NCBI RefSeq assembly: GCF_001565895.1
Contig: NZ_LSNE01000006.1
Coordinates: forward strand, 325,744 to 389,192
Length of the DNA: 63,449 bases
Direction: 5' to 3'
Source of the DNA: Paraglaciecola hydrolytica
GTDB lineage: Bacteria > Pseudomonadota > Gammaproteobacteria > Enterobacterales > Alteromonadaceae
Under the pieces are notes generated by a model. That model saw nothing but the letters and a program-made list of their open reading frames with translations, did not search any database and was not told the DNA's origin. This document shows, one piece after another, positions 22,672 to 63,449 of this stretch (the first letter of the stretch is position 1; each line of letters starts with the position of its first letter). Both the position numbers and the translations under genes were made by a program.

Positions 22672-22904
22672 TTTCTAATATAATTGAGGCTGAATCAAAT
22701 ATTTAGCTTCAAATGCCTTATCTAATACAACAGATATTGCCTAAAACCACTTACCGTACTTGCTCTAGACTGACTCTGATTACCAACCACTAGCATAAGT
22801 GAATATGCGTATTTACTCGCAATAGACTTGCAATATGTAGGTAAATTGCAACATTATGACGTATTGTAAAAAATATTAGTTATTTTATTAAATAGGTGTG
22901 GAAT

Positions 22905-24071
22905 ATGTTTAGTTTAAGGGAAGGCAAACTTGTCATCGCGCTGCTAACTGCTTTGGGGTTAAGTGCGTGTCAGTCGACGTCAACCACAAACCCACCTGTT
23001 GAAACAGTTAAACAAGAAGTTAAACCGATAGTTTATGTTGCGCAAGAAGGATTGACAGCAAAACTGCGATTTAGCAAGGCACTTGAATATCTTGAGAATG
23101 GTCAAGAGGGCCAGGCAAAAGTTGAATTACAGAGTTATTTAGCCAGCATTCCGGATAGCAAAAGTGCCAAGGATTTGTTAACTCAGATTGAGATGGATCC
23201 TAAAACATTTTTTCCACAGGAATCTTTTGCTGTTGTACTTAAATCTGGTGAAAGTTTATCAACACTCTCAAAAAATTATCTCGGTTCTGCCCTTAAATTT
23301 TATGCTTTAGCAAAATATAACCAAATCAGTAACCCTAGTCGGGTGAATATTGGGCAGACGATTAATATTCCTCTAACAGCAAGTGCTAGCAAAAAACGTC
23401 AGTTAGAGTCGCAAGGCGATGTTGCCAGCAAGGCTGATGTTAGCCCTATTGGCGACACAGATCCCAAGCCAGACAAGGCAAGTACGGTAAAGACTAGTGA
23501 TAGTAGCAATAAAGACCAAGTCGCTAGTAACAACAAAAAGGCCGCAGTACTAACTAGTGCCGCACCCGTCGAAACGGCAGAAACAGTGCTGGCTAGTTTG
23601 TTAAAGGCTTTAGAAGCAAAGGATTTTGTTGTGGCCCAGCAACAGGTTGAAAAACTACAAGGTTTTGGCGAAATTAGTAAACAAGCTAGGCCTTTGGTTA
23701 TTAAAACTTTAACAGGGGATGCTGCTCGTTTAAGCGCATTAAATAAACCCTTAGCGGCAAACCGTTACGCGCAAATTGCACAATTAAATTTGCAGGATAA
23801 CGATAATTTAGCTGCCTTTGATCATCTTAAAAAAGCCAGTCTTTTAGATCCGGCCAATGTTCAAGTATCAGAAGATATGCTGGTATTGCAAAAAGACCTC
23901 AGTGATAAATATCACCGTGAAGCCTCGTCCGCTTATCGCCGTCAGGAGTTAGACTTGGCTATTGAAAAGTGGAACAAGGTGTTAGAAATTGACCCTCAAC
24001 ACAGCAGTGCCAAACTGTATCGTGCACAAGCCATTGAATTAAAAGAGCGATTGAAAAAGTTAAATAACTGA
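22905..24071 (+). CDS. LysM and TPR-containing lipoprotein
   Basis: 388 aa predicted lipoprotein: signal peptide with lipobox LSAC near residue 21, then a TPR-like segment (LEYLENGQEGQAKVELQSYL). A LysM domain follows (FAVVLKSGESLSTLSKNYLG ... NIGQTINIP, about residues 105-155), presumably binding peptidoglycan. A low-complexity S/K/T/D linker of about 50 residues leads to C-terminal TPR repeats with EKWNKVLEIDPQHSSAKLYRAQAI. ATG 22905 is preferred over an upstream GTG at 22896. It faces the kinase operon, whose proteins show the same LysM/TPR themes, so it is probably functionally linked. Confidence 0.85.
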   Translation: MFSLREGKLVIALLTALGLSACQSTSTTNPPVETVKQEVKPIVYVAQEGLTAKLRFSKALEYLENGQEGQAKVELQSYLASIPDSKSAKDLLTQIEMDPKTFFPQESFAVVLKSGESLSTLSKNYLGSALKFYALAKYNQISNPSRVNIGQTINIPLTASASKKRQLESQGDVASKADVSPIGDTDPKPDKASTVKTSDSSNKDQVASNNKKAAVLTSAAPVETAETVLASLLKALEAKDFVVAQQQVEKLQGFGEISKQARPLVIKTLTGDAARLSALNKPLAANRYAQIAQLNLQDNDNLAAFDHLKKASLLDPANVQVSEDMLVLQKDLSDKYHREASSAYRRQELDLAIEKWNKVLEIDPQHSSAKLYRAQAIELKERLKKLNN

Positions 24072-24105
24072 TCCACTTAAATTGGTATAAAAAAGCCACA
24101 TAACA

Positions 24106-25017
24106 TCAGTTTGTTGCTTTTATTTGCCGCAGATTTTGTTGGATACGCTTAGCTTGAAACAGCAATTTAGTTGCGCTTTGATTATTGTGATCAAAGGCGA
24201 CACTGCTCTGTAAATACTCTACCGCCTTATCAATATCGCTTTTTAATACTTTATTAGCTTGCACAAAATAATGGTTTGATACCTGTTGTTTTAGCTGCGA
24301 TAGCTGGTCAGATACGCCCGACGTGGGTTGTAGTTTATATGCCTGTTCAAGATAGCCTATGGCTTGTTCATTCTCCCCACGTAGTTGATGTACTTCAGCT
24401 AATTTAAGCAAAGCATGCAATTGATGTTGTTGCGCCTCAGTATTTTTTGGTGTTGTTAGCAAATAATCTTGGCTTAGTTGTAGCAGTGCGCTGAAGTTTT
24501 TCTGCTTAAGTAGGTTTTGTGATTGTTGATTATAGTCAGCCTGAGCTTTTTGCAACTGTTGCTGGGTTTGACTCAGTTTGATGTTCTCATTCATCTTGGC
24601 CGTTTTTTTTTCGGCGGCAGACAGCCCTGTTTTAAATTCAATATTTCTAAGTTGCTGCATGGCAAATTGATTATCTGGTTCAAGTGCCAAAATTTTCAAA
24701 CATATGGTTTTTAGCGAGTTGGAGTTAGCTGCTGGTGTTAATTTTTTTGCCTGAGCGGTAAGCAGAGCGGTTTTCTGAGATATTAACTGGCTTAAGCGCC
24801 TTACTTCAGCATCCACTAGTGCTTGCTGTGGAGAGATGGTTTTTGCAATTTTCCATTGGATAAGCGCATCTGCGTATTGTTCTTCTGCTTCTAGTTGCAT
24901 TGCTAATAATTGGCGTTGTAAATAAATATCGGCTTGCTCATGAGTGACAGTTGCACAAGCACTTAATATGCAGACAATCAGCGCGCTTAGGTAGTACTTT
25001 TTATTAGCTGCGCTCAT
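24106..25017 (-). CDS. TPR-containing lipoprotein
   Basis: 303 aa predicted lipoprotein with lipobox LSAC near residue 21. The rest is helical, with TPR-like units (LAMQLEAEEQYADALIQWKIAKTISPQQ; NEQAIGYLEQAYKLQPTSG; IDKAVEYLQSSVAFDHNNQSA) and a central coiled-coil-like Q/K-rich stretch. Third gene of the operon kinase, deacetylase, TPR lipoprotein, with its ATG overlapping the previous stop by four bases. It probably scaffolds envelope partners; no enzyme motif. Confidence 0.8.
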   Translation of the reverse strand: MSAANKKYYLSALIVCILSACATVTHEQADIYLQRQLLAMQLEAEEQYADALIQWKIAKTISPQQALVDAEVRRLSQLISQKTALLTAQAKKLTPAANSNSLKTICLKILALEPDNQFAMQQLRNIEFKTGLSAAEKKTAKMNENIKLSQTQQQLQKAQADYNQQSQNLLKQKNFSALLQLSQDYLLTTPKNTEAQQHQLHALLKLAEVHQLRGENEQAIGYLEQAYKLQPTSGVSDQLSQLKQQVSNHYFVQANKVLKSDIDKAVEYLQSSVAFDHNNQSATKLLFQAKRIQQNLRQIKATN

Positions 25018-25991
25018 TTTAAGTTTACTTGTTTAAAGCCATCAAGCTGCTTGACGAAAGTAGTCAGATTATCGTCGGCGTAGATCATGGTGCGATTCAG
25101 TAGATAAGGAGAGGCAAATGTGGGGTTACTGCCTTTTTTTACGGTCAGTCCAAGTTGGTAGTGTTGCTTCGCCAGTAAGTCGATGAGTTGTTGGCTGGTA
25201 TTACCATATGGGTAAGCAAAATATTGGGCTGTACGTTGGATCTTTTGTTGCAGTATTTTATCGGTATCTAACACTTCTGTTGCCAAACGTTGCAGATAAG
25301 CACTTGAATTTTCGCCTCCCGCTTTGGGAGATAAGTTGTCATGTGACTTAGAATGAGACTGAATATCGACTAAGGGATCATTATTCAAGAAGCCGACATC
25401 ACGCCAATTTAACGCGGACCCTACGCCTATAAAATCAGGATAAATAAACAAGGTGGAAGCAAAACCATATTTTTTTAAGATCGGATAGGCAATTTCCAGA
25501 TAGCTTTTATAACCATCGTCTATGGTGATGACCACAGATTTTTCCGGTAATGCCTGTTGGCCCTGAGTAAAATGATGAAATTCTTGCAGCGAGATCACTC
25601 GATAATCATGTTGCTGCAAATAGGCCATTTGTTGTTCAAAATTGTTTGCTGACACCACCATGCTGTTATTAGCTGGCCCAGCGGAAAATTGGTGGTAACA
25701 AAGGATCGGGATACTCTGATAGCCATTAACGTAAACGGCTGCGGGGTTGAAATTGCGTTTGGGGATGGCAACTACATCACCTTTACTCAAATTAAGTTGC
25801 GGATTGTATCGCGCTATAATGCTGGCGTCTTGTGGATGACCAAGATAAGCGATGGCCAAGCTCGTTAGGTCGTCCTGTGGTAAGGGTTTGATGATGATAA
25901 AGTTTGCATCTTGTGCGACAGTTTGCCGACCACTGCTGGCGCAGCCTGACAAGCCTGCTAAGCAGCAAAAGATAAAAACCAGTCCCTTCAT
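25014..25991 (-). CDS. LysM-like and NodB polysaccharide deacetylase lipoprotein
   Basis: 325 aa lipoprotein (lipobox LSGC near residue 16). A LysM-like module (LTSLAIAYLG ... NPQLNLSKGDVVAIP, about residues 40-78) precedes a NodB homology domain. The NodB metal and catalytic motifs are present: TIDDGYKSY (normally TFDDG) near residue 158, HSKSH near residue 213 and FAYPYGN near residue 264. It probably deacetylates an N-acetylated glycan such as peptidoglycan or exopolysaccharide in the periplasm. Coupled to the kinase gene by a four-base overlap, which suggests that the deacetylase is part of the kinase's output or sensing circuit. Confidence 0.85.
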   Translation of the reverse strand: MKGLVFIFCCLAGLSGCASSGRQTVAQDANFIIIKPLPQDDLTSLAIAYLGHPQDASIIARYNPQLNLSKGDVVAIPKRNFNPAAVYVNGYQSIPILCYHQFSAGPANNSMVVSANNFEQQMAYLQQHDYRVISLQEFHHFTQGQQALPEKSVVITIDDGYKSYLEIAYPILKKYGFASTLFIYPDFIGVGSALNWRDVGFLNNDPLVDIQSHSKSHDNLSPKAGGENSSAYLQRLATEVLDTDKILQQKIQRTAQYFAYPYGNTSQQLIDLLAKQHYQLGLTVKKGSNPTFASPYLLNRTMIYADDNLTTFVKQLDGFKQVNLK

Positions 25992-27868
25992 TTGGTTTTT
26001 TTCCCAGTTGATTTAGTGGTACTTGTTGGTCCCTCAGATTTGGCTGGTTTAGATTTTGTCAGTGCACTATCTAGTTCGATTAAGCTGCTTGCCAAAATGG
26101 TTTCATCATTCTCAAACATTGTGTTTACCGGTGCTTCTTCACTAGCATCAGTGGCTGTATTGTCAGACTTTTTCGGTTTTACCTTACGCAATAAGGTTTT
26201 AACTGATTTGTTGATGGTTTCGACGGTATTTTTAATTTCAAACGGTTGGCTCGATTCTATCTCTTCATATTCGTCTGTGGCGAGGGTATGGTGGGCGGCC
26301 GCGGCCATCTTATTAAAGCTAGTAAATAGCTCACCTATTTCATCGTTGCGACTTAAAGATATACGCGTGTCGTGATGACCTTCGGCATAACTTTGTAAGG
26401 CACGATTAAGTATTTTGAGTGGCTTAGCCAATAAAGCACCAAAAATAAACAGCACAACAAATACCGAAGAAATAGTGACTAATGCCAGTCCCAACATTAA
26501 CCAACCGGTGATACTTTTCACTTGCTCCAGGCTGGCTTGTGATAAACCCAATATGATGTGACCGACTTCAGTATTTTGGAACAATATCGGCGCATTAATA
26601 TTAAAAACCTTGTTGCCGTTGGCGAGCTCTATACTGGTGGTCGTTAGATCATCTTTTTCTAATACGTGCTCAGCACTTTCGCTTAACTTATACTGTTGTC
26701 CTACCAAAGAAAGATCACTGGCTCCCCTGATAGTACCAGAGCGGTCTGTGACAATGAGATAGCTGAACGTATCGCGACTACTGGCTTCGCTAATAAAACT
26801 TTCTAGGGTGATCCAATCTTCGCTTAGCAGAGGGATCGCTGTTTCAATCGCAATAAATTTGGCAAAGGAAGCGCCTGAATCAACCGCTTGGCTAGTCATT
26901 GCTCGAGATTGAATAGTAAATACCACAGTCATACTGACCAACATGATCACTGCCACAATCACACTCATATAGAGTGACCAGCGGATTTTTAAGGGCACAT
27001 ATTTATGTTTACGTTGTTCTTCTTCTTGCTCTCTGACACTGGCCAATTCTTTGGCTAATGCGGCAGCTAAAGCCCCACCTGTTTGAAAACGCTTATCGGG
27101 TTTTTTTTGCAATAATTTAGAAATGATTTGACGCAAACCCGCAGGTAAGCCGGGACAGAGTTTCTGCAGTGGCTCGGGTTGGAGTTGGGTGATTTGTGTC
27201 ATTAAAGTGCCAATGTTGCCTGCATCAAAGGCTTTGGCTCCACTGAGCATTTCATACAAAATTACCCCAACTGAGAACAGATCAGAACGGCCGTCGATTT
27301 CTTCTCCTAGTGCTTGTTCAGGGGACATATAACGTGGTGTGCCAAGCACCGAACCAACATGAGTTTTTTGTACTTCCTCGCTTTCATTCATGCGGGCGAT
27401 ACCAAAGTCGGCAACTTTGATCGACTCACCATCAGGCAATACAATAATGTTGTCAGGTTTAATATCGCGATGGACTATGCCGGACTGATGAGCATAATTA
27501 AGGGCTTTAGCCAGTTGTAAACCGATGACTAGGGTTTCTGCCACCGACATTTTTTTCTTTTCTTTTAATACATCGCCCAGGTCTTTGCCTTCGAGTAACT
27601 CCATCATCATGTAGGGCGTTTTGTTAATTTTACCTACATCGTAGACCGTCACAATGTTGGAGTGGGATAAGGCCCCTGCGGCTTTGGCTTCGCGCAAAAA
27701 ACGTGATAAGTACTCTTCGTCTACACAAAGATCTTCTTTTAGTACCTTAAATGCCACGGCGCGATTAATTTGTGGATCATAGGCCTTATACACCTTGGCC
27801 ATGGCGCCTTCGCCTATAAGTTCCTGAATTTCAAACCGTCCAATTGTTGTGTTCAAAATATCCGTCAC
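25988..27868 (-). CDS. Transmembrane Ser/Thr protein kinase with periplasmic sensor and HAMP
   Basis: 626 aa. The N-terminal eukaryotic-like kinase domain (about 12-275) is complete: Gly-rich loop GEGAMAKV, Lys41, catalytic HRDIKPDN (Asp135), DFG (Asp154) and activation loop GTPRYMSPEQ. A transmembrane helix (about 297-319), a periplasmic region of about 130 residues with a CACHE/PAS-like appearance, a second helix (about 455-479) and a HAMP domain (about 480-532) follow. The acidic/Lys-rich tail contains NDETILASS. The order kinase, sensor, HAMP is unusual because HAMP normally sits between sensor and effector. First gene of a three-gene operon and divergent from its likely phosphatase. Confidence 0.93.
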   Translation of the reverse strand: MTDILNTTIGRFEIQELIGEGAMAKVYKAYDPQINRAVAFKVLKEDLCVDEEYLSRFLREAKAAGALSHSNIVTVYDVGKINKTPYMMMELLEGKDLGDVLKEKKKMSVAETLVIGLQLAKALNYAHQSGIVHRDIKPDNIIVLPDGESIKVADFGIARMNESEEVQKTHVGSVLGTPRYMSPEQALGEEIDGRSDLFSVGVILYEMLSGAKAFDAGNIGTLMTQITQLQPEPLQKLCPGLPAGLRQIISKLLQKKPDKRFQTGGALAAALAKELASVREQEEEQRKHKYVPLKIRWSLYMSVIVAVIMLVSMTVVFTIQSRAMTSQAVDSGASFAKFIAIETAIPLLSEDWITLESFISEASSRDTFSYLIVTDRSGTIRGASDLSLVGQQYKLSESAEHVLEKDDLTTTSIELANGNKVFNINAPILFQNTEVGHIILGLSQASLEQVKSITGWLMLGLALVTISSVFVVLFIFGALLAKPLKILNRALQSYAEGHHDTRISLSRNDEIGELFTSFNKMAAAAHHTLATDEYEEIESSQPFEIKNTVETINKSVKTLLRKVKPKKSDNTATDASEEAPVNTMFENDETILASSLIELDSALTKSKPAKSEGPTSTTKSTGKKTK

Positions 27869-28108
27869 AGTTTGACTCCCGCATACTGTTAAATTGCCAA
27901 AGCTTTGTTATTGAAGTTTGCTGCTAAGTAGGTAATTATCGGTCGAAAATGAGTCTACATAGAAAAATAGCTTCAGGCAAAATACTATTATACTCAGTGG
28001 CATAAGTCTCGATTGATATTCAGCAAGTCGATATTTTTACGTAGGTTTTTTGCGCTTTTTTACATAATATTGATGCAAAAGCTTTGATGTATAGGAAATT
28101 AACAATTC

Positions 28109-28915
28109 ATGTTGAAAAATGATTGGCTGTCAGTTGCTGATACCGATATCGGGGCGATCCGTAAGATTAATGAAGATGATTTTCTCAACGCGCCGCAAAT
28201 AGGTTTATGGTGTGTGGCCGATGGCATGGGGGGGCATCAAAAAGGAGATCTTGCCAGCAGCATGATAGTCGATCGTCTTGCGGAGTTTAATCTACCTGGA
28301 AACTTTCCGCTTACGCCTAATTTAGTCAAAGAAGGCTTGATCGAAGTGAACAGCAGTTTGCTGAGCATTGCCGCTCAATCTGCACCTAAGACAGTAATTG
28401 GCAGCACCGTAGCAGTCTTATTATTTGATCACAGTCACGCCCATTGTGTATGGGCCGGTGATAGCCGAATTTACCGTTTTCGGCAGAATAAATTAACTCG
28501 CTTAACTAAAGATCATAGTCAGATAGAAGAAATGCTCGAAGCTGGTTTATTGAGCGCGGAAGACGCTGAGCACCATCCTGCATCAAATGTGATAACTCGT
28601 GCGGTAGGCGCTAATAGTAGACTTGATTTGGATGTCAGTTCGATAGCTCGTCGGCAGGGAGATATCTATTTGTTATGCAGTGATGGTTTAAACAAAATCA
28701 TGCCTGATGATGAAATTGCCAACATCTTAAGAACCTCTCCCTTGTCAGAAGCCGTTGAGGTATTTATTGGCACTGCCTTGCAACGTAAAGTGCGGGATAA
28801 TGTAACAGTAGTGCTGGTTGCGGATTATGCCGCTCAGTCTGAAGAGTCTATTGATAAAGCCAGTCTTGATGCAACTTTAGCGCTGGATGAAACCTTGCCC
28901 TTAAAATCTAACTAG
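28109..28915 (+). CDS. PP2C family protein serine/threonine phosphatase
   Basis: 268 aa cytosolic metal-dependent phosphatase, likely reversing the divergently encoded kinase. All PP2C motifs are present: RKINEDDF (near residue 20), VADGMGGH (near 46), GSTVAVLLF, WAGDSRIYR (near 115), LTKDHSQ, HPASNVITRAVG, CSDGLN and DNVTVVLV. The C-terminal tail beyond the domain carries two threonines in an acidic, hydrophobic context (LDATLALDETLPL), possible phosphorylation sites. It reads away from the kinase across a 240-bp shared region. Confidence 0.94.
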   Translation: MLKNDWLSVADTDIGAIRKINEDDFLNAPQIGLWCVADGMGGHQKGDLASSMIVDRLAEFNLPGNFPLTPNLVKEGLIEVNSSLLSIAAQSAPKTVIGSTVAVLLFDHSHAHCVWAGDSRIYRFRQNKLTRLTKDHSQIEEMLEAGLLSAEDAEHHPASNVITRAVGANSRLDLDVSSIARRQGDIYLLCSDGLNKIMPDDEIANILRTSPLSEAVEVFIGTALQRKVRDNVTVVLVADYAAQSEESIDKASLDATLALDETLPLKSN

Positions 28916-28992
28916 CCATTGCCAACAGTCTAGGCATGTTTAGCTTGAACAACATTCATATATTAAAGTTAAATACGGCTAATTCAGTCAAG

Positions 28993-29685
28993 CTAATCTT
29001 TGTGTAGGATAGTGGTTTTTTCTAACATGGCTTCGTTGCGGATCTTGGGGCGGTACTCTCGAATGGTGAACAGAATATCTTTAAATAGAATTTCATCACC
29101 GTGTAACAGTACTTGTTTATTTGTTACTTTTTTACCATTAATTTCAGTGCCATTAGCTGAACCTAAATCTTCAGCAAACAAAACCTCATTGTCCAAAAAA
29201 ATCCGCAGGTGGTAACGTGAAATGTATGAGCGCAGTAACGTGATGTCACATTCAATGGCTCTACCTATGGTTATAGGCTCAATAATTTTATATTCCAAAC
29301 CTTCCAATGGACCATTTTCGGCATAGAAATACCAACCATCATGTACTGCGGCCGGTTTTAAACCTTTGGTTAATGACAATCTACGATCAATAATTGGCGC
29401 TATGTTATTGAGTACTCTGCGTTCGGTAAACGGTGCAATGCGGATAAACCCTCGAATAGTGACATCATAAAACCATGAAATGGTCAGGGCTACGGGGAAT
29501 AAAATAATCAGTAATACCAATAATCCCTGAAAATAACTGTTACTCAGGCCCACAGCGGGAAAAGTAAGTGAGGCGACTTGCACAATAATCCATGAACTGA
29601 CCACATACAGTAGCAAGGTATTGAGAACTTTTCGTCGGCGTAATTCGCCAAACAGATTGCTCAATTTATGCATTGTTTTATCCAT
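28993..29685 (-). CDS. Membrane-anchored FHA domain protein
   Basis: 230 aa. The N-terminus FGELRRRKVLNTLLLYVVSSW, followed by a second hydrophobic region to about residue 75, is the short transmembrane module often found fused to adenylate cyclases and TPR proteins. The C-terminal half is an FHA phosphothreonine-binding domain: IGRAIECDI (near 137), SRYHLRIF and EDLGSANGTEINGKKV. The last residues LEKTTILHKD resemble the threonine pair of GarA/OdhI FHA regulators, though placed at the C-terminus. It is the likely phospho-reader for the adjacent kinase/PP2C pair. Confidence 0.9.
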   Translation of the reverse strand: MDKTMHKLSNLFGELRRRKVLNTLLLYVVSSWIIVQVASLTFPAVGLSNSYFQGLLVLLIILFPVALTISWFYDVTIRGFIRIAPFTERRVLNNIAPIIDRRLSLTKGLKPAAVHDGWYFYAENGPLEGLEYKIIEPITIGRAIECDITLLRSYISRYHLRIFLDNEVLFAEDLGSANGTEINGKKVTNKQVLLHGDEILFKDILFTIREYRPKIRNEAMLEKTTILHKD

Positions 29686-44782: not shown

Positions 44783-45763
44783 ATGATCTCGGTAAAAAAC
44801 TTATTTAAGTCATTTGGCAGTTTTAAGGCTGTAGATGACCTCAGCTTTGATATTAAACCTGGTGATGTGGTGGGGTTTTTAGGCCCAAACGGTGCTGGAA
44901 AATCTACTACCATGAAAATGCTCACCGGCTTTTTAGCGCCGACTCGTGGCGACATCCGCATTTTTGATTTGGACTTTAATTCTCAACCAAAAGCCATAAA
45001 AAAAATGATTGGTTATCTGCCAGAAGGGGCTCCGGCCTACGGGGATATGACGCCACTGCAATTTTTAAATTTTATTGCGCAAATTCGTGGTTATTCTGGC
45101 AGTGAAAAACAAACACGCATTCAGAGTGTGATCCAGCAAGTTGAACTACAAGAAGTACTGGATAAGCCTATTGATAATCTGTCTAAAGGTTTTAAACGTC
45201 GTGTAGGATTAGCACAGGCCTTAATTCACGATCCGCAAATTTTAATCTTAGATGAGCCAACTGATGGTCTGGATCCAAACCAAAAACATCAAGTACGTGC
45301 CTTAATTAAAAACCTAGCGAAAGATAAAATTGTCATTATCTCTACTCATATTCTCGAAGAGGTCAGCGCGGTGTGTAATCGTGTGATGATCATTGCCAAA
45401 GGTAAGTTATTGTTTAGTGGCACACCCGACGAGTTAAATCGTCAGTCCCGTTTTTATGGCGCAGTTACGTTGAGTTTTAGTTATAAAGCCGATATTTCTG
45501 AGCTGGCCGAACTTGAAGGAGTGGCTGAAATGGTTGTTGATCCGGATAACGGCAACGTCACCTTAATCCCTGAGCCAAACAAACATATTCTGCATTTAGT
45601 TACCGCCCACGTGCAACGTTGCAAATTACCGGTGGACAGCTTGTTTGTTGAACAAGGCAGATTAGATGATGTATTTAGAGAGATTACTCAAGCGGAAGCT
45701 CAGAAGGAGCAGGTTGATATTCACGAGGAGCAAATTGATACTCAGAAGGAAATAGCGCAATGA
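44783..45763 (+). CDS. ABC transporter ATP-binding protein (GldA/CcmA-like)
   Basis: 326 aa ATPase of an ABC-2-type exporter: Walker A GPNGAGKST near residue 36, Q-loop YLPEGAP, signature LSKGFKRRVGLAQAL near residue 134, Walker B ILDEPTDGLDP, H-loop STH. A C-terminal extension beyond about residue 215 and an acidic/Q-rich tail resemble the gliding-motility GldA subgroup. It overlaps its permease gene by four bases. The cargo is unknown; these systems in non-gliding proteobacteria are poorly characterised. Confidence 0.93.
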   Translation: MISVKNLFKSFGSFKAVDDLSFDIKPGDVVGFLGPNGAGKSTTMKMLTGFLAPTRGDIRIFDLDFNSQPKAIKKMIGYLPEGAPAYGDMTPLQFLNFIAQIRGYSGSEKQTRIQSVIQQVELQEVLDKPIDNLSKGFKRRVGLAQALIHDPQILILDEPTDGLDPNQKHQVRALIKNLAKDKIVIISTHILEEVSAVCNRVMIIAKGKLLFSGTPDELNRQSRFYGAVTLSFSYKADISELAELEGVAEMVVDPDNGNVTLIPEPNKHILHLVTAHVQRCKLPVDSLFVEQGRLDDVFREITQAEAQKEQVDIHEEQIDTQKEIAQ

Positions 45764-46494
45764 GTAATGTGATGATCTTATTAAAACGTGAATTTGCCAG
45801 TTTTTTTGCCACGCCAGTGGCCTATGTATTTATTGGTATATTCTTAATTTTATCCGCAGTATTTGCCTTTTTTATTGGTAGTTTGTATGAACGTGGACAA
45901 GCTGACTTGTTGCCATTTTTTAATTTTCACCCTTGGTTATATCTATTTTTAGTACCCGCCATGGCCATGCGCACTTGGTCAGAAGAGCGCAAAAGCGGCA
46001 GTATTGAATTACTCATGACCTTGCCCATCAGCACTTGGCAAGCCATGTTAGCTAAACATCTTGCCGCTTGGTTGGTATTGGGGTTGGCCTTGGTATTGAC
46101 TTTTCCGCTGTGGATTACGGTCAACTATTTAGGTAATCCAGATAACGGCATCATTCTGGCGGCCTATCTTGGCAGTTGGTTTATGGCCGGAGCATTTTTA
46201 GCCATTGGTATTTGTATGTCAGCTATGACTAAAAATCAGGTAATTGCCTTTATTTTGTCGGTGGTAGTGTGCTTTTTGTTTGTGGTCAGTGGCAGCAATA
46301 TTGTATTAGATGCCTTTAAAAACTGGGCACCAAGTTTAGTGATAGACACTATCGCATCTTTTAGTTTTCTCACTCATTTTGAAGCGATGGCTAAAGGTGT
46401 GATTGCCTTAAACGACCTAGGGTATTTTTTATTGGTTACCTTGAGTTGGCTGTTTGCAGGTTTACTTATTATTGAACAAAAGAAGGCAGATTAA
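45760..46494 (+). CDS. ABC-2 permease (GldF-like)
   Basis: 244 aa integral membrane protein with six predicted helices and the CPBP/ABC-2 features TWSEERKSGSIELLMTLPIS after helix 2. It pairs with the preceding ATPase. Ends in the overlap TAATG with the next gene, so stoichiometric synthesis is likely. Confidence 0.92.
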   Translation: MSNVMILLKREFASFFATPVAYVFIGIFLILSAVFAFFIGSLYERGQADLLPFFNFHPWLYLFLVPAMAMRTWSEERKSGSIELLMTLPISTWQAMLAKHLAAWLVLGLALVLTFPLWITVNYLGNPDNGIILAAYLGSWFMAGAFLAIGICMSAMTKNQVIAFILSVVVCFLFVVSGSNIVLDAFKNWAPSLVIDTIASFSFLTHFEAMAKGVIALNDLGYFLLVTLSWLFAGLLIIEQKKAD

Positions 46495-48365
46495 TGATGC
46501 AACACAAATTAACCACTTCTATTAGCCTAATATTAACCGCCGTGGTGTTTTTTGCCTTGGTATTACTTAACAACCAATTGTTATCACCACTGCGCTTGGA
46601 TCTGACTGAAAATCAGGTGTATTCCTTATCTAAAGGTAGTAAACAGGTATTAGCCGACATTGATGAGCCGCTTAATCTGTACTTTTTCTTTTCAGACAAA
46701 GCCACAAAAAATATGACGGGTTTGCGTAATTACGCTAATCGTGTCGAGAGTTTGTTGACCGAATATCAAACTATCGCCAAGGGTAAACTCAATCTGCAGA
46801 TCATTGATCCCCAGCCATTCTCTGAGCAAGAAGATCAAGCAAATCAATATGGTTTAACCGGCGCCACGATAGGAGCTGCAGGTGAAGCCGTATACATGGG
46901 GCTCGCAGCCACCAATGCTATTGGCGAGCAAAAGGTGATAGCGTTTTTTGATCCTAAACAAGAAAGCTTTTTGGAATACGAGATCAGTAAGTTAATCCAT
47001 CAGCTGAGTAATACCAAGCCGGTTAAAGTTACTTTATTAAGCGACCTAAGTATTGCTGGTGGGCAAAATCCTATGACAGGTCAAGCTGATCCGGCTTGGA
47101 CTTTTTACACCCAGTTACAGCAGCTTTATCAAGTTGAACTGCTGGGTAGTGATATCTCAGCCTTACCAGAGGATACGGATTTATTGGTCTTAGTACACCC
47201 TAAAGAATTAAACGAAACACTGCTATACGCTATTGATCAATATGCCATGCAGGGCGGGAAGCTCTTAGTTTTTGTTGATCCTCACAATGAATCAGATCCT
47301 TTGGCGATGATGGCGGGTGCAATGGGCGCTAATGGCTCATCTTTAGAGCGTTTATTTAGTGCATGGGGCCTGAGCTTCGACAGCGAACATGTCTTGCTCG
47401 ATGCCATGGCGGGATTAGATATTCGCACCCAGGCGGGTGGTGTAACACGTCATTTTGGCTTTATTGGTCTAGGAGCAGAGCAACTTGATCGAGACGATAT
47501 TACCACGACTAATTTAGAAGTAATCAATGGGGCATCCTTTGGTACCTTTAGCAAACTAGCTGGTGCCAGCACGCAGTGGATGCCTTTGATGCACTCCACC
47601 GTTAACGCTGATCTTATGCCAGTCGAAAGTTATGCCATGACTCGCGACCCTGATGAATTGGCGCGCAAATATCAAAGTAAAAATCGTCAGTATGCCTTGG
47701 CAGGACGTTTAATGGGTAAAGCTAAATCTGCTTTTGAAAGCGCCGCCGAAGGTGAAAATGAGGCTGATTTCAAATCCTCAACATCAGCATTAAATGTGCT
47801 GGTGGTAGGCGATACGGACTTATTAGCCGATCGTTTTTGGGTACAACAAGCCAACTTCTTTGGTCAGACGATTTTTACACCTTTTGCCAATAATGGGGAT
47901 TTTGTCACTAACTCGGTAGAAAATCTCAGTGGCAGTGATGCCCTGATCAGTATTCGCAGCCGCGGTACTTTTGCTCGCCCGTTTATCAAAGTGGATGAAT
48001 TGACGGTTATCGCTGAACAGAAATTCCGTGAACAAGAGCAAATATTGCAACAGCAACTTGATGAGACTGAACAACAACTTATTCAACTGCAAAACCAGCA
48101 AGGTGAGGGCGCTGCTTTAGCGGTGTCACCGGAGCAACAGCAAGCTATTGATGCTTTTGTACAGAAAAAAATTCAGATCCGTAAAGCCTTACGAGAAGTA
48201 CGTCATCAATTAGATAAAGACATCGAGACGTTGGGTAGTTGGCTCAAATTTATTAACATTGCACTGGCACCGCTGGCTTTGGTTTTATTCTTGATGTTGT
48301 GCGGTGTATTGTTAAGAACCAAATCTAATCCTGCGCAGCGCGGTCTGACTAAGGAGGCCAAATGA
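46494..48365 (+). CDS. GldG-like ABC-associated extracytoplasmic protein
   Basis: 623 aa. An N-terminal transmembrane helix (about 9-27) is followed by the GldG/ABC-2 auxiliary domain (LDLTENQVYSLSKGSKQVLADIDEPLNLYFFFSD). A large soluble region has KPVKVTLLSDL and LVLVHPKELNETLLYAIDQYAMQGGKLLVFVDPH, then a coiled coil (about 505-590) and a C-terminal helix near 600. In gliding bacteria GldF and GldG form the membrane part with GldA. Here it is coupled to a DUF4340 gene by ATGA. Confidence 0.9.
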   Translation: MMQHKLTTSISLILTAVVFFALVLLNNQLLSPLRLDLTENQVYSLSKGSKQVLADIDEPLNLYFFFSDKATKNMTGLRNYANRVESLLTEYQTIAKGKLNLQIIDPQPFSEQEDQANQYGLTGATIGAAGEAVYMGLAATNAIGEQKVIAFFDPKQESFLEYEISKLIHQLSNTKPVKVTLLSDLSIAGGQNPMTGQADPAWTFYTQLQQLYQVELLGSDISALPEDTDLLVLVHPKELNETLLYAIDQYAMQGGKLLVFVDPHNESDPLAMMAGAMGANGSSLERLFSAWGLSFDSEHVLLDAMAGLDIRTQAGGVTRHFGFIGLGAEQLDRDDITTTNLEVINGASFGTFSKLAGASTQWMPLMHSTVNADLMPVESYAMTRDPDELARKYQSKNRQYALAGRLMGKAKSAFESAAEGENEADFKSSTSALNVLVVGDTDLLADRFWVQQANFFGQTIFTPFANNGDFVTNSVENLSGSDALISIRSRGTFARPFIKVDELTVIAEQKFREQEQILQQQLDETEQQLIQLQNQQGEGAALAVSPEQQQAIDAFVQKKIQIRKALREVRHQLDKDIETLGSWLKFINIALAPLALVLFLMLCGVLLRTKSNPAQRGLTKEAK

Positions 48366-49390
48366 ATAAACAGTTAGGCCTGTTAGTACTGATTGCGTTG
48401 CTGGCGGTAGGCGGAGGAGTGTGGTTAAGTCATCAGTCCGAGTCGAAAAGCAGTGAAGTGCAACTTATGTTTGTTGATGGCAGTAAAAAAGCCAGTAAGA
48501 TCACTGCAGTTAGTTTGCAAAACAGTCAAGGTAGTTTATTGCAAGCTGAGTTAATCGACGGTCAATGGATGGCTAAATTGGCTGAGTCTGGGGCGAGTTA
48601 TCCGTTGGATAAAACCGCCTTGGCCGATTTTATTCAGAGCCTAGTGCAAGCTAAACTGCAAGAAGCTAAGACTGCAAAAAAAGAGAATTATCATCACTTA
48701 GGCGTTGAAGCCATTGACGATGTAGATAGCCTTGCGACGTTGGTGTCAATCACGAGCAGTGATGCCGCTAAACCATGGCAAATATTGATTGGTAATAAGG
48801 TTAATACTGGGCAGGGAAGTTATGTACGTATGCCACAAGTTTCCCAAAGCTGGAAAGTGGATCAAACGATCAACTTGCCGAGTAGCAAGTTTGATTGGTT
48901 GAAAAGACCGATATTATCCATCAGTAAAGACGACATCGAGTCTATCAGTCGCAGTGATAACAAAGGTTGGAGCATAGTTACAGATGACGAAGCCGAATTT
49001 AAACTTAAGGCTATGCCTAAAGGGCGAGAGTTACGTTATCCAGGCGTTGTCACTGCACTTGTCAGTAGCATACTTGAACTCGATTTTGAGCAACTATTAG
49101 CTTTGGATGATGCACAATGGCAAAAGGCTAAAGTCATCAGCAAGTTAACGCTAAAAACCAAGGCAGATGAGGTTATTCAGTTGAAGGTTGCAAGCTTGGA
49201 TAACAGCTATTTTATCCAGTTTAGTTCAGAGCAACTTAATAACTATTGGTTAGATTGGACCTATCAAGTGAGCAGTTTTAACGCACAGCAGTTAACTAAA
49301 TCCCTTGAAGACTTTTTAGCTGAACTGCCTAAAGCAAGTGATGCAAAAGCTAGAGCAGATGAAATTGAGGAAGGGGATTCGCCCTTGTAG
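48362..49390 (+). CDS. DUF4340 domain protein of the ABC operon
   Basis: 342 aa with an N-terminal signal anchor (residues 4-22, LGLLVLIALLAVGGGVWL) and a soluble periplasmic domain of the DUF4340 type (repeated beta-rich units, e.g. KITAVSLQNSQGSLLQAELIDGQW and KWLKRPILSISKDDIESISRSD-like segments). It is the last gene of the four-gene operon, followed by a bidirectional terminator. DUF4340 proteins commonly accompany Gld-like transporters; biochemical role unknown. Confidence 0.87.
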   Translation: MNKQLGLLVLIALLAVGGGVWLSHQSESKSSEVQLMFVDGSKKASKITAVSLQNSQGSLLQAELIDGQWMAKLAESGASYPLDKTALADFIQSLVQAKLQEAKTAKKENYHHLGVEAIDDVDSLATLVSITSSDAAKPWQILIGNKVNTGQGSYVRMPQVSQSWKVDQTINLPSSKFDWLKRPILSISKDDIESISRSDNKGWSIVTDDEAEFKLKAMPKGRELRYPGVVTALVSSILELDFEQLLALDDAQWQKAKVISKLTLKTKADEVIQLKVASLDNSYFIQFSSEQLNNYWLDWTYQVSSFNAQQLTKSLEDFLAELPKASDAKARADEIEEGDSPL

Positions 49391-60750: not shown

Positions 60751-63449
60751 TTAAATGCTGGACAATAGCTGCTCGGCATCTTTTCGTTCGCTGAATTCAG
60801 CTTGAGACGCTAACGTTTTCTTCAATTCTTCTTTTGCTTCGGTCGTTCGACCTAATTTTTGTAGCGTAAAGGCAATATGATAACGAATGGATAAATCATT
60901 TGAGCTGATAGCATGTGCTTGACGTAATGAAACTAACCCATCTTCAAAACGCCCAAGTTTAACTAGGATCCAACCATGGGTATCAAGTACTGCGGGCACG
61001 GTATTTGCGCTTTCTAGAGCTCTTTTGGCATAACCAAGAGCTGTTGGAAGATCATCTTGCACATAAATATTAGCGAGATTATTTAATATAGAATAATCTT
61101 TACTAATTTTATCTTGTTCAATAAGTTTAAGATAATGGGGTTTAGCTTCCTGCCATCTATTTTGATTCATCAAATGATCAGCAAATAATTTACGACGCCA
61201 GTTATTTTCCGGCTGTTCATCAAGCAAACTCTTCAGTAGAACCGAAAACTCCTGCTCTTTTATGCCACGTCTGGCTAATTCGTATAATCGAATAAGGGGT
61301 AACTGATAGTCATTTTGTAGATTGATAGCAATGACGTAGTGCTCATAAGCCTTTATATAACTTTCTCTAGCCAACTCAATATCACCTTTTAGCAAGGAGA
61401 TATTTGGGTTTTTGCCATATTGCTTCTCCATACTATCAGCCACATTTTGGGCAATTTGTGTTTCATTTAATTGCAGATTCAATCTTGCATATTCAAGATT
61501 TAGCAGCAAATGTTTAGGCAGGTAGCTAAGCGCTTTTAAGAGTGTATTATTGGCACCTTCAAAATCATCTACACTCTGTTGCATTGAACTTAGGCGAAAC
61601 AGTTTTTCAGGGCTGTCTAGCCATAGATTGTATAACTTTGTGAGTTGTAACTTAGCTTCATCCACATCTCTATTAGCGATGAGTACTTCAGCTCGTTTTA
61701 TTGAAAACTCTGGTTCAAATGGGAATTCTTTACTTAATTTATTCACGAGTCGCAATGCGACGTCTGTTTGTTGGTTTTTTAAATACAGATTTAATAACAA
61801 TAATTGAGCTTTGCTATTACGTGGTTCAAGTGTTGTGAGGCGTTCGAGTCGGCTAATGGCTGGTAATAAATTATTGTCTTCTGATTCAACTAGGGCCAGT
61901 TGGAACTGCGCTGCGTTATGGCTGGGCTGTTCTTCTACAAGTTGGTTTAGTAAAGTTCGTGCTTGAGTAAACTGACCGGTATTTTTTAAGATCATTGCCT
62001 GATTAAAACGCCCAGCAAAGTGGCTAGGGGATATTGCGAGTACATTATCAATTGCTATTTGTGCCTCTTCACTTCGACCTAATCTTAGTAAAGCAGCAGC
62101 ATTGAGGTTCCAATAATCTACATTACGATCATCAGCCTTTATGAGTAGCGCTGAGGCTTTAAGTGCTTGTTCAAATTGACCGTTTTGGATATAGAGAAAA
62201 CCTCTAGCCAATAGTAGTGATGGGTTTTGCGAATTTTTTGTACTGCTGTGTTCGATTAGTTTTATGGCTTCTGGCATTTTACCTCTGGCAATTAGTGCTT
62301 TAGAAGACATTAAAATAACTTTAATTTCATCCGGATAGTGTTCTCTCAATTTAGATAACCAATAATCGGCTTTAAAATCTTTACCATTTTTCAAATATAA
62401 ATCGGCTAGTTTTAAGGCAACTTGTAATTTATCAATGAGCTTGTCTTCTACACGCTCCAAGATGTGCATTGCTGCGTCATTTTGTCCCATCGAGATATAG
62501 ATTTCTGCCAACATGGCAGTGGCATTGATATCATGACGGTTTTTATTGACGTATTTAGCTAATGTTAATCGTGCTTGTTCAAAATTACCTTGCACATATT
62601 CCGTCATCCCTTTAACAAACAATAAAGAGTCCTGTTGTTCATAAGTAGCATCAGTAACTAAGGTTAACTTACTACTTAGATCATCTAATATATTGTTGGC
62701 CAATTCACCTTGTTCGTTTTTAGATAATATCCAGCTACTTAATAACATGGCAAAGGGGTCATCAGGGGTTTGTTTAATAATGCTGTCAGCGACTATTTTA
62801 GCTTCTGTTAACTGTTCAGTAGAAATGAGTGCGTATGCCAACGAACGCCTAGCCACTGGATCGTCAGCCTCTATTTTTAAGGCAGTGCGATAGAAGTCGA
62901 TAGCTTGTTGAAGGTTGCCATTGGCTTCAGCAATCTTTCCTTTTAAGTGCCAAGTTCTATGGTCGCCAGGAGCTATTTTGAGGGATTTATCGGCTTGTTT
63001 TTCAGCGTTGTCTAATTTGTTTTCACTTAAATCGAGAAATGCCAGACTGTTGATGGCTCTTGTATTTTCAGGATACAGTTTAATTGCGGTATTATATTCA
63101 GAACGGGCTAATTCTGGTTTTCCAAGGTTACTGTAGGCACTGGCTGACAGCATTTTCCACTCAAAATTAGTTTCATTGGTGAGTTTATAACCTTTCCCTA
63201 AATCGAGCACATCTTGATATTGTGAATTAAAAGTCAATACATTACCCAATGGTAACAACACTAGATTAATGTCAATTTTGAATTCAATGGCTTCGCGAAA
63301 CTCTTTAATAGCTTCTTCATAATAACCATTGCGTGTTAATAACTGACCTTTTAATAGTTTGGCGGGAAGATTTTTAGGGTTAGCCTGTAAGGCATTTTTC
63401 AGGTAGATATAAGCTGCGTCGAACTCTTGTTGTTGATAAGACTGTAATG
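60751..63449 (-). CDS. Large TPR protein of PrsT type, 5'-truncated by the window edge
   Basis: The frame runs open past the right edge, so at least 898 codons are present and the true start lies outside the window; the GTG at 63261 is not the start because the upstream codons continue TPR sequence (YLKNALQANPKNLPAKLL, then GYYEEAIKEFREAIE). Some twenty TPR-like units are visible across the protein (e.g. ARSEYNTAIKLYPENTRAI; AIDFYRTALKIEADDPVAR). The YLKNAL...L and LVLLPLGNVL spacing and overall length match PEP-CTERM-system TPR proteins (PrsT), lipoproteins linked to exosortase and exopolysaccharide loci. Confidence 0.75.
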   Translation of the reverse strand, partial: LQSYQQQEFDAAYIYLKNALQANPKNLPAKLLKGQLLTRNGYYEEAIKEFREAIEFKIDINLVLLPLGNVLTFNSQYQDVLDLGKGYKLTNETNFEWKMLSASAYSNLGKPELARSEYNTAIKLYPENTRAINSLAFLDLSENKLDNAEKQADKSLKIAPGDHRTWHLKGKIAEANGNLQQAIDFYRTALKIEADDPVARRSLAYALISTEQLTEAKIVADSIIKQTPDDPFAMLLSSWILSKNEQGELANNILDDLSSKLTLVTDATYEQQDSLLFVKGMTEYVQGNFEQARLTLAKYVNKNRHDINATAMLAEIYISMGQNDAAMHILERVEDKLIDKLQVALKLADLYLKNGKDFKADYWLSKLREHYPDEIKVILMSSKALIARGKMPEAIKLIEHSSTKNSQNPSLLLARGFLYIQNGQFEQALKASALLIKADDRNVDYWNLNAAALLRLGRSEEAQIAIDNVLAISPSHFAGRFNQAMILKNTGQFTQARTLLNQLVEEQPSHNAAQFQLALVESEDNNLLPAISRLERLTTLEPRNSKAQLLLLNLYLKNQQTDVALRLVNKLSKEFPFEPEFSIKRAEVLIANRDVDEAKLQLTKLYNLWLDSPEKLFRLSSMQQSVDDFEGANNTLLKALSYLPKHLLLNLEYARLNLQLNETQIAQNVADSMEKQYGKNPNISLLKGDIELARESYIKAYEHYVIAINLQNDYQLPLIRLYELARRGIKEQEFSVLLKSLLDEQPENNWRRKLFADHLMNQNRWQEAKPHYLKLIEQDKISKDYSILNNLANIYVQDDLPTALGYAKRALESANTVPAVLDTHGWILVKLGRFEDGLVSLRQAHAISSNDLSIRYHIAFTLQKLGRTTEAKEELKKTLASQAEFSERKDAEQLLSSI

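Follow-up and report, generated by a model that had tools for sequence, protein, structure and literature searches.

The window analyzed here is a 63,449-nucleotide stretch of the Paraglaciecola hydrolytica genome (contig NZ_LSNE01000006.1, positions 325,744 to 389,192). It contains six adjacent genes, which we refer to as the module, for a transmembrane Ser/Thr kinase, a PP2C phosphatase, a membrane-anchored FHA protein, and three lipoproteins, one of them a NodB/PgaB-like polysaccharide deacetylase (Table 1). An earlier note, made from the sequence alone, had described these genes as encoding a writer, an eraser, and a reader of protein phosphorylation together with three envelope lipoproteins, and their Pfam domains, lipoboxes, and hydrophobic segments agree with that description. 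All six open reading frames (ORFs) were confirmed, the first of which could start at GTG 22896 or ATG 22905 (the note had used the latter). We also confirmed the 4-base overlaps between the TPR lipoprotein gene and the deacetylase gene and between the deacetylase gene and the kinase gene.

Table 1. Genes of the module and their predicted parts (window coordinates; positions within features are residues)
Product	Position	Strand	Length (residues)	Features
LysM/TPR lipoprotein	22896..24071	+	391	Lipobox LSAC; TPR-like hairpins 55-105; LysM 110-160; linker; TPR-like 228-390
TPR lipoprotein	24106..25017	-	303	Lipobox LSAC
NodB/PgaB-like polysaccharide deacetylase lipoprotein	25014..25991	-	325	Lipobox LSGC; TxDD and HSxxH intact
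Transmembrane Ser/Thr kinase	25988..27868	-	626	Kinase 12-263; hydrophobic segment from 301; sCache-like region; hydrophobic segment from 457; HAMP 479-524; C-terminal tail with DETIL
PP2C phosphatase	28109..28915	+	268	Divergent to kinase gene; C-terminal end LDETLPLKSN
Membrane-anchored FHA protein	28993..29685	-	230	Hydrophobic segments from 24 and 54; FHA 138-201; C-terminal tail EKTTILHKD

Pfam matched the kinase domain (180 bits) and its HAMP domain (43 bits), the FHA domain (63 bits), and the deacetylase domain (Polysacc_deac_1, 66 bits), and a PP2C domain was also found. The kinase and the FHA protein have two strongly hydrophobic segments each. An sCache_3_2 match in the kinase scored 25.3 bits, below the Pfam cut-off of 28.4, and we refer to this region as sCache-like. 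The earlier note had counted two LysM-like modules. The one in the LysM/TPR lipoprotein scored 29.7 bits, above the Pfam cut-off, whereas the N-terminal stretch of the deacetylase gave only a sub-threshold match. Alignments were used to assess conservation in the enzymes. Kinase residues K41, D135, and D154 are kept in 42 of 42 aligned sequences, PP2C residues D38, D118, D192, and D230 in 30 of 30, and deacetylase residues T156, D158, D159, H213, and H217 are invariant in 18 of 18. We take these to be the catalytic residues of the three enzymes.

The residues at position +2 of the three lipoproteins are Q, A, and A, which, assuming the usual Lol rule, would route all three to the outer membrane. 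An AlphaFold2 model of the LysM/TPR lipoprotein (mean predicted local distance difference test score, 87.4; predicted template modeling score, 0.70) shows hairpins of helices, a beta-alpha-alpha-beta unit like that of LysM, and a TPR-like domain that follows a low-confidence linker. Comparison of this model with the PDB returned nothing beyond common TPR and helical matches. The TPR lipoprotein is the least conserved member of the module, with 28 to 33% identity to four relatives.

We surveyed 395 Alteromonadaceae genomes with a profile of the LysM/TPR lipoprotein (cut-off of at least 140 bits; 51 weaker matches were dropped). It was present in 15, and the kinase gene lies beside it in 13 of these. 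A whole five-gene set, in one order and orientation, is kept in 12 of the 15, and the TPR lipoprotein gene is in place in 12 of the 13 kinase-bearing loci. In genome G193, the kinase and deacetylase are present, PP2C was not seen, and the TPR lipoprotein match is weak (42 bits). In two genomes (G097 and G261), the LysM/TPR lipoprotein gene was the only module gene in the stretch read; for G097, this stretch stops at a contig end. Among 60 relatives, close orthologues of the kinase and deacetylase (at least 50% identity) and of the LysM/TPR lipoprotein (at least 40%) were confined to the same five genomes (G014, G019, G021, G035, and the window genome, G000).

The FHA protein follows the same distribution. 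In a draw of the same size, made up of the same genomes as far as these are listed, it was found in 6 of 395 Alteromonadaceae genomes, all within the 15 that bear the LysM/TPR lipoprotein. The probability of this by chance is 1e-9 if genomes are assumed to be independent, which they are not. Its gene is on a different contig from the module in five of the six genomes, in four neighborhoods, one of which is common to G014 and G019. Therefore, linkage cannot account for the co-occurrence of the FHA and LysM/TPR genes. In L210 and in two Haliea loci, L211 and L212, all more distant, the FHA gene comes directly after the LysM/TPR gene. These patterns support the prediction that the six genes are one functional unit of writer, eraser, reader, and envelope lipoproteins, as the earlier note had proposed.

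The note had also recorded no type VI secretion system (T6SS) genes and implied that the module is independent of such systems. The absence extends to the whole window genome assembly (20 contigs, 100% complete), which had no match to any of the four core families searched, TssK, TssC, Hcp, and TssM. However, the implied independence was not supported as it stands. The module is 18.6 to 28.0 kb from a T6SS (LysM/TPR gene to TssC sheath gene) in 10 of the 13 kinase-bearing Alteromonadaceae genomes, and the window kinase belongs inside that group. It directly adjoins tssM-tagF in three genomes (G014, G019, and G181) and is approximately 3.7 kb past tagF in G035. In six others (G067, G105, G110, G138, G166, and G184), the module and T6SS cluster share a contig, with the module beyond the VgrG end. 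TssC is 87.9 kb from the module in G193. When searched with G019 profiles, the T6SS genes of G067, G110, and G184 scored far below those of the other seven, so there are two kinds of T6SS beside the module. The earlier reading is therefore partly supported: the unit is real, and its nearest context was missed.

A second module-bearing genome, a Paraglaciecola metagenome-assembled genome (MAG; G021), also had no TssK, TssC, Hcp, or TssM match. All four were matched in G014 and G019 (Paraglaciecola arctica). The G021 module is flanked by the same genes (hemC/hemD-like by eye) as that of G019, where the module and T6SS adjoin. In a kinase tree, G021 groups with G181, G014, and G019 (support 100/99). 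The window kinase is apart from P. arctica and groups with G184 (94/93) and then with G067 and G110 (87/95), inside a 12-member clade (100/100) of which 10 members are T6SS linked. Read most simply, this suggests that the full module lost, or left, its T6SS twice. The three nearest relatives of the window that bear a T6SS, G184, G067, and G110, have kinase end branches of 0.09 to 0.26, a range that includes the window kinase (0.21), and the end branches of the window NodB, TPR, and LysM/TPR proteins are likewise in the range of these three.

The kinase, PP2C, and FHA protein have conserved tails that contain threonine. The pattern [DE]-x-T-[IVLM]-[IVLM] is present in 13 of 13 kinase tails from Alteromonadaceae modules, with 25 copies versus 1.1 expected from shuffles. 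D-x-TLP is found near the C-terminal end of PP2C in 12 of 12 Alteromonadaceae copies and in 0 of 18 others. The last 20 residues of the FHA protein hold [KQNDSEAR]-T-[TVISLM]-[IVLMF]-[IVLM] in 101 of 117 homologues (those of at least 220 residues among the best 120 of 195), versus 1.9 expected. These shuffle tests overstate significance because homologues share ancestry. As controls, the kinase pattern was found in none of 10 non-module kinases, no more than 45 residues from an end in 26 of 997 unassigned ORFs, and in 4 of 9 TssL and 2 of 7 TagH proteins. None of the three patterns occurred in 22 deacetylases or 20 TPR lipoproteins, and two of them occurred in 1 each of 56 LysM/TPR proteins.

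The conserved tails suggest a phosphothreonine network that would be read by the FHA domain. There is a precedent in Agrobacterium tumefaciens, where TssL is phosphorylated on Thr14 in a PpkA-dependent manner and is then bound by Fha (excerpts of PMC3953482), and phosphothreonine docking is described for the T6SS threonine phosphorylation pathway (excerpts of PMC3953482 and PMC12607579). In GarA, a regulatory motif, ETTS, lies next to the FHA domain (excerpts of PMC12321487). The TssL N termini in three of our loci (L021, L022, and L131) carry DRTMI or DRTVI, a comparison made by motif and not by alignment to A. tumefaciens TssL.

We put a probability of about 0.52, slightly better than even, on the following explanation: this is a trans-envelope threonine phosphorylation module of the T6SS control type, with a LysM/TPR/deacetylase arm, that was kept and is still used after its lineage lost the T6SS. 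The envelope lipoproteins would bind peptidoglycan or another glycan containing N-acetylglucosamine (GlcNAc), which the NodB enzyme would edit. The periplasmic sCache-like/HAMP region of the kinase would read the state of the glycan layer or the lipoproteins themselves. The N-terminal kinase domain might phosphorylate its own tail and also the C-terminal tail of the membrane FHA protein (T-T-[FILV]-[IVL] type). FHA domains would then dock on the phosphorylated threonine tags, and PP2C, perhaps recruited via its own D-x-TLP end, would reset the system.

The closest comparison is with the PpkA/PppA/Fha pathway of T6SS. The module shares with it a transmembrane kinase and a PP2C with intact active-site residues, an FHA reader, envelope partners, and, in relatives, a position at T6SS clusters. 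However, the module kinase has an sCache-like/HAMP sensor and a cytoplasmic tail. Known sensor arms of T6SS kinases include TagQRST of Pseudomonas aeruginosa and the outer membrane protein TssW of Acidovorax citrulli (excerpts of PMC12607579), and the module would have LysM, TPR, and NodB lipoproteins in their place. Among the six genes and the three scanned next to them, Pfam found no ABC transporter or other TagQRST/TssW-type domain, a scan that did not extend to the rest of the genome. The FHA protein also differs, being membrane anchored with a C-terminal TT motif, and it was rejected as a T6SS Fha/TagH-type reader. Its architecture is two transmembrane segments followed by the FHA domain, it had no T6SS-named Pfam or NCBIfam match up to an E value of 0.01, and its homologues are a separate family. 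Finally, the window genome has no T6SS as judged by the four core families.

Other known systems match parts of the module. Like GarA and OdhI of actinobacteria, the FHA protein is small and has a conserved motif with a threonine pair flanking its FHA domain. However, this motif is C-terminal, the protein is membrane anchored, and its NCBIfam OdhI score was 25.5 bits against a cut-off of 200. The kinase and PP2C resemble PASTA kinase/Stp1 pairs (PknB/Stk) in their catalytic domains (311 and 204 bits), but the kinase lacks PASTA repeats and the PP2C score is below the cut-off of 230. We rejected the kinase as a PASTA kinase (NF033483) because it scored 311.4 against a cut-off of 450, over residues 10 to 285 only, and had no PASTA domain among its Pfam matches. 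The deacetylase is related in sequence to PgaB and IcaB and shares their TxDD, HSxxH, and YPYG motifs, but it differs from them in its LysM-like N-terminal stretch and its kinase operon context. It scored below both NCBIfam cut-offs (PgaB, 109.6 bits versus 321.9; IcaB, 89.3 versus 248.35). Its best-scoring solved structures are the PgaB deacetylases 3vus, 4f9d, and 4u10, followed by 4wcj and 6dq3 (both listed only as polysaccharide deacetylase). No description of the module was found among the listed open-licence papers on T6SS, kinase-FHA systems, deacetylases, and LysM proteins, judged mostly by title and the start of the abstract. To that extent, the claim that no named system has this content stands.

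We also looked outside the Alteromonadaceae. LysM/TPR matches with E values of no more than 1e-6 were found in 38 of 394 genomes in an order survey and 27 of 369 in a class survey, and neighborhoods were read for 39 genomes. The earlier note had expected neighborhoods with the kinase and PP2C to keep the lipoproteins as well. This held for the Alteromonadaceae, where 12 of 13 modules keep all five genes, and only in part for a family that we label f7. The kinase and LysM/TPR lipoprotein are together in 14 of 20 f7 loci, and 13 of these 14 have the FHA protein and PP2C too. However, neither the deacetylase nor the TPR lipoprotein was found in the 12- to 20-kb stretches read for the 14 loci, and profiles found no T6SS genes there. 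TssC was unmatched in 8 of the 14 genomes with this smaller core and was present in 13 of the 32 f7 genomes searched. The f7 FHA proteins (L025 and others) have, by eye, a conserved GPQGT[LQ]VF near the N terminus and a hydrophobic C-terminal segment, and the former is a possible threonine switch.

Four other loci have the kinase, deacetylase, lipoproteins, and T6SS genes in one stretch (L130 in G774, L131 in G1100, L207 in Neptunomonas, and L208 in Vibrio albus). At L130, TssM, TagF, and TagH matches are beside the module, yet TssC is unmatched in a genome rated 100% complete. L211, from a Haliea MAG, has the order LysM/TPR-FHA-TPR-NodB-kinase, and profiles found no T6SS genes in 20 kb, with the rest of that genome not searched. 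Some loci have fewer module genes. L135 has the three lipoproteins, with the kinase unmatched in the 12.5 kb read, and L132 and several f7 loci have the LysM/TPR gene without the kinase. In L212 (10001 to 12423; Haliea sp. E1-2-M8), the LysM/TPR and FHA genes are side by side; next to them, the only matches are to kinase residues 325 to 598 and to a short TPR fragment, and the stretch yielded neither the kinase domain nor NodB. At L129 (G1052), the LysM/TPR gene lies between two kinases, which score 717 and 424 bits with the module profile.

Several points weigh against a retained T6SS-type module that is still in use. All three tail patterns were picked after inspection, so their tests are post hoc. 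They are three related patterns and not one, with the kinase pattern in just 1 of 30 PP2C and 1 of 8 FHA tails. Furthermore, the kinase pattern was present in only 7 of 14 f7 kinase tails (0.6 expected) and 1 of 15 other kinase tails (0.15 expected), and TssB (L180 to L189), which has no known role here, has it close to one end in 4 of 8 sequences. Distantly related TssL proteins do not conserve the region around Thr14 (excerpts of PMC3953482). The FHA protein is absent from 7 of the 13 kinase-bearing genomes. Five single-gene trees (12 rows) disagree on the place of the window, and the window PP2C branch is long (0.65 versus 0.23 to 0.33 in G184, G067, and G110). The G021 PP2C, TPR, and LysM/TPR branches are longer than those in G181, G014, and G019, and G021 is a MAG that is 94% complete and 9% contaminated. 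T6SS could also have joined the module repeatedly rather than been lost. The explanation leans on steps that we infer: sensing by the lipoproteins, tail phosphorylation, docking, T6SS loss rather than gain elsewhere, and the signal and output of the module, including an output in a T6SS-free cell. The three separate tail patterns, discordant gene trees, and longer G021 branches weaken it a little, and they slightly raise the likelihood of either a stand-alone pathway or a relic.

A tentative second explanation, which we consider possible with the odds somewhat against it, is an undescribed gammaproteobacterial envelope signaling system. In this, the LysM/TPR lipoproteins and deacetylase would report on the cell wall to the sCache-HAMP kinase, and the membrane FHA protein, through a phospho-TT switch at its C terminus, would carry the output. 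Such a system would be autonomous and would have been coupled to two or more kinds of T6SS cluster, and T6SS control would then be just one of its uses.

Less probable, and on balance unlikely, is the pathway that the earlier note had favored, which senses the state of peptidoglycan or another glycan and controls deacetylation or morphogenesis. The T6SS clusters of relatives would have recruited it. This is helped by the smaller f7 core without nearby T6SS genes and by the Haliea loci, including the five-gene order of L211, and the T6SS clusters next to the module fall into two clearly distinct score classes. However, the deacetylase-bearing form is T6SS linked in most Alteromonadaceae genomes that have it, and in the kinase tree the window copy falls among linked copies. 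Peptidoglycan is also unproven as the deacetylase substrate because the enzyme resembles those of the PgaB type.

We think it improbable that the module is a decaying relic, in which control genes have persisted without function after deletion of the T6SS. Two T6SS-free genomes within the T6SS-linked kinase clade, the longer branches in the window and G021, and the partial L212 locus fit decay. However, the window has six intact ORFs with conserved catalytic residues, four of its proteins have branches of ordinary length for their nearest T6SS-bearing relatives, and the tail motifs have been kept. Very improbable is control of an exopolysaccharide, with the enzyme deacetylating secreted poly-GlcNAc and the kinase module regulating export or biofilm formation: PgaB deacetylases are the best-scoring solved structures, but the PgaB and IcaB scores fall below cut-off, the LysM lipoprotein suggests peptidoglycan, and none of the six genes or their three scanned neighbors encodes a synthase or exporter, although the search for a synthase did not go beyond these nine genes.

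Elsewhere in the window, there are four adjacent genes at 44783 to 49390. The three that were scanned encode an ABC ATPase, an ABC_transp_aux protein, and a DUF4340 protein, and we take the group to resemble gliding-type ABC exporters. An 836-residue ORF at 60751 to 63261 consists mostly of TPR repeats.

Envelope sensing by T6SS kinases is described for few arms, namely TagQRST and TssW (excerpts of PMC12607579). The module would offer a defined new arm, one that brings cell wall-binding and glycan-editing parts, and its conserved tails predict phosphosites and FHA docking. Natural T6SS-free examples such as P. hydrolytica may be the place to look for a non-T6SS output of the pathway.

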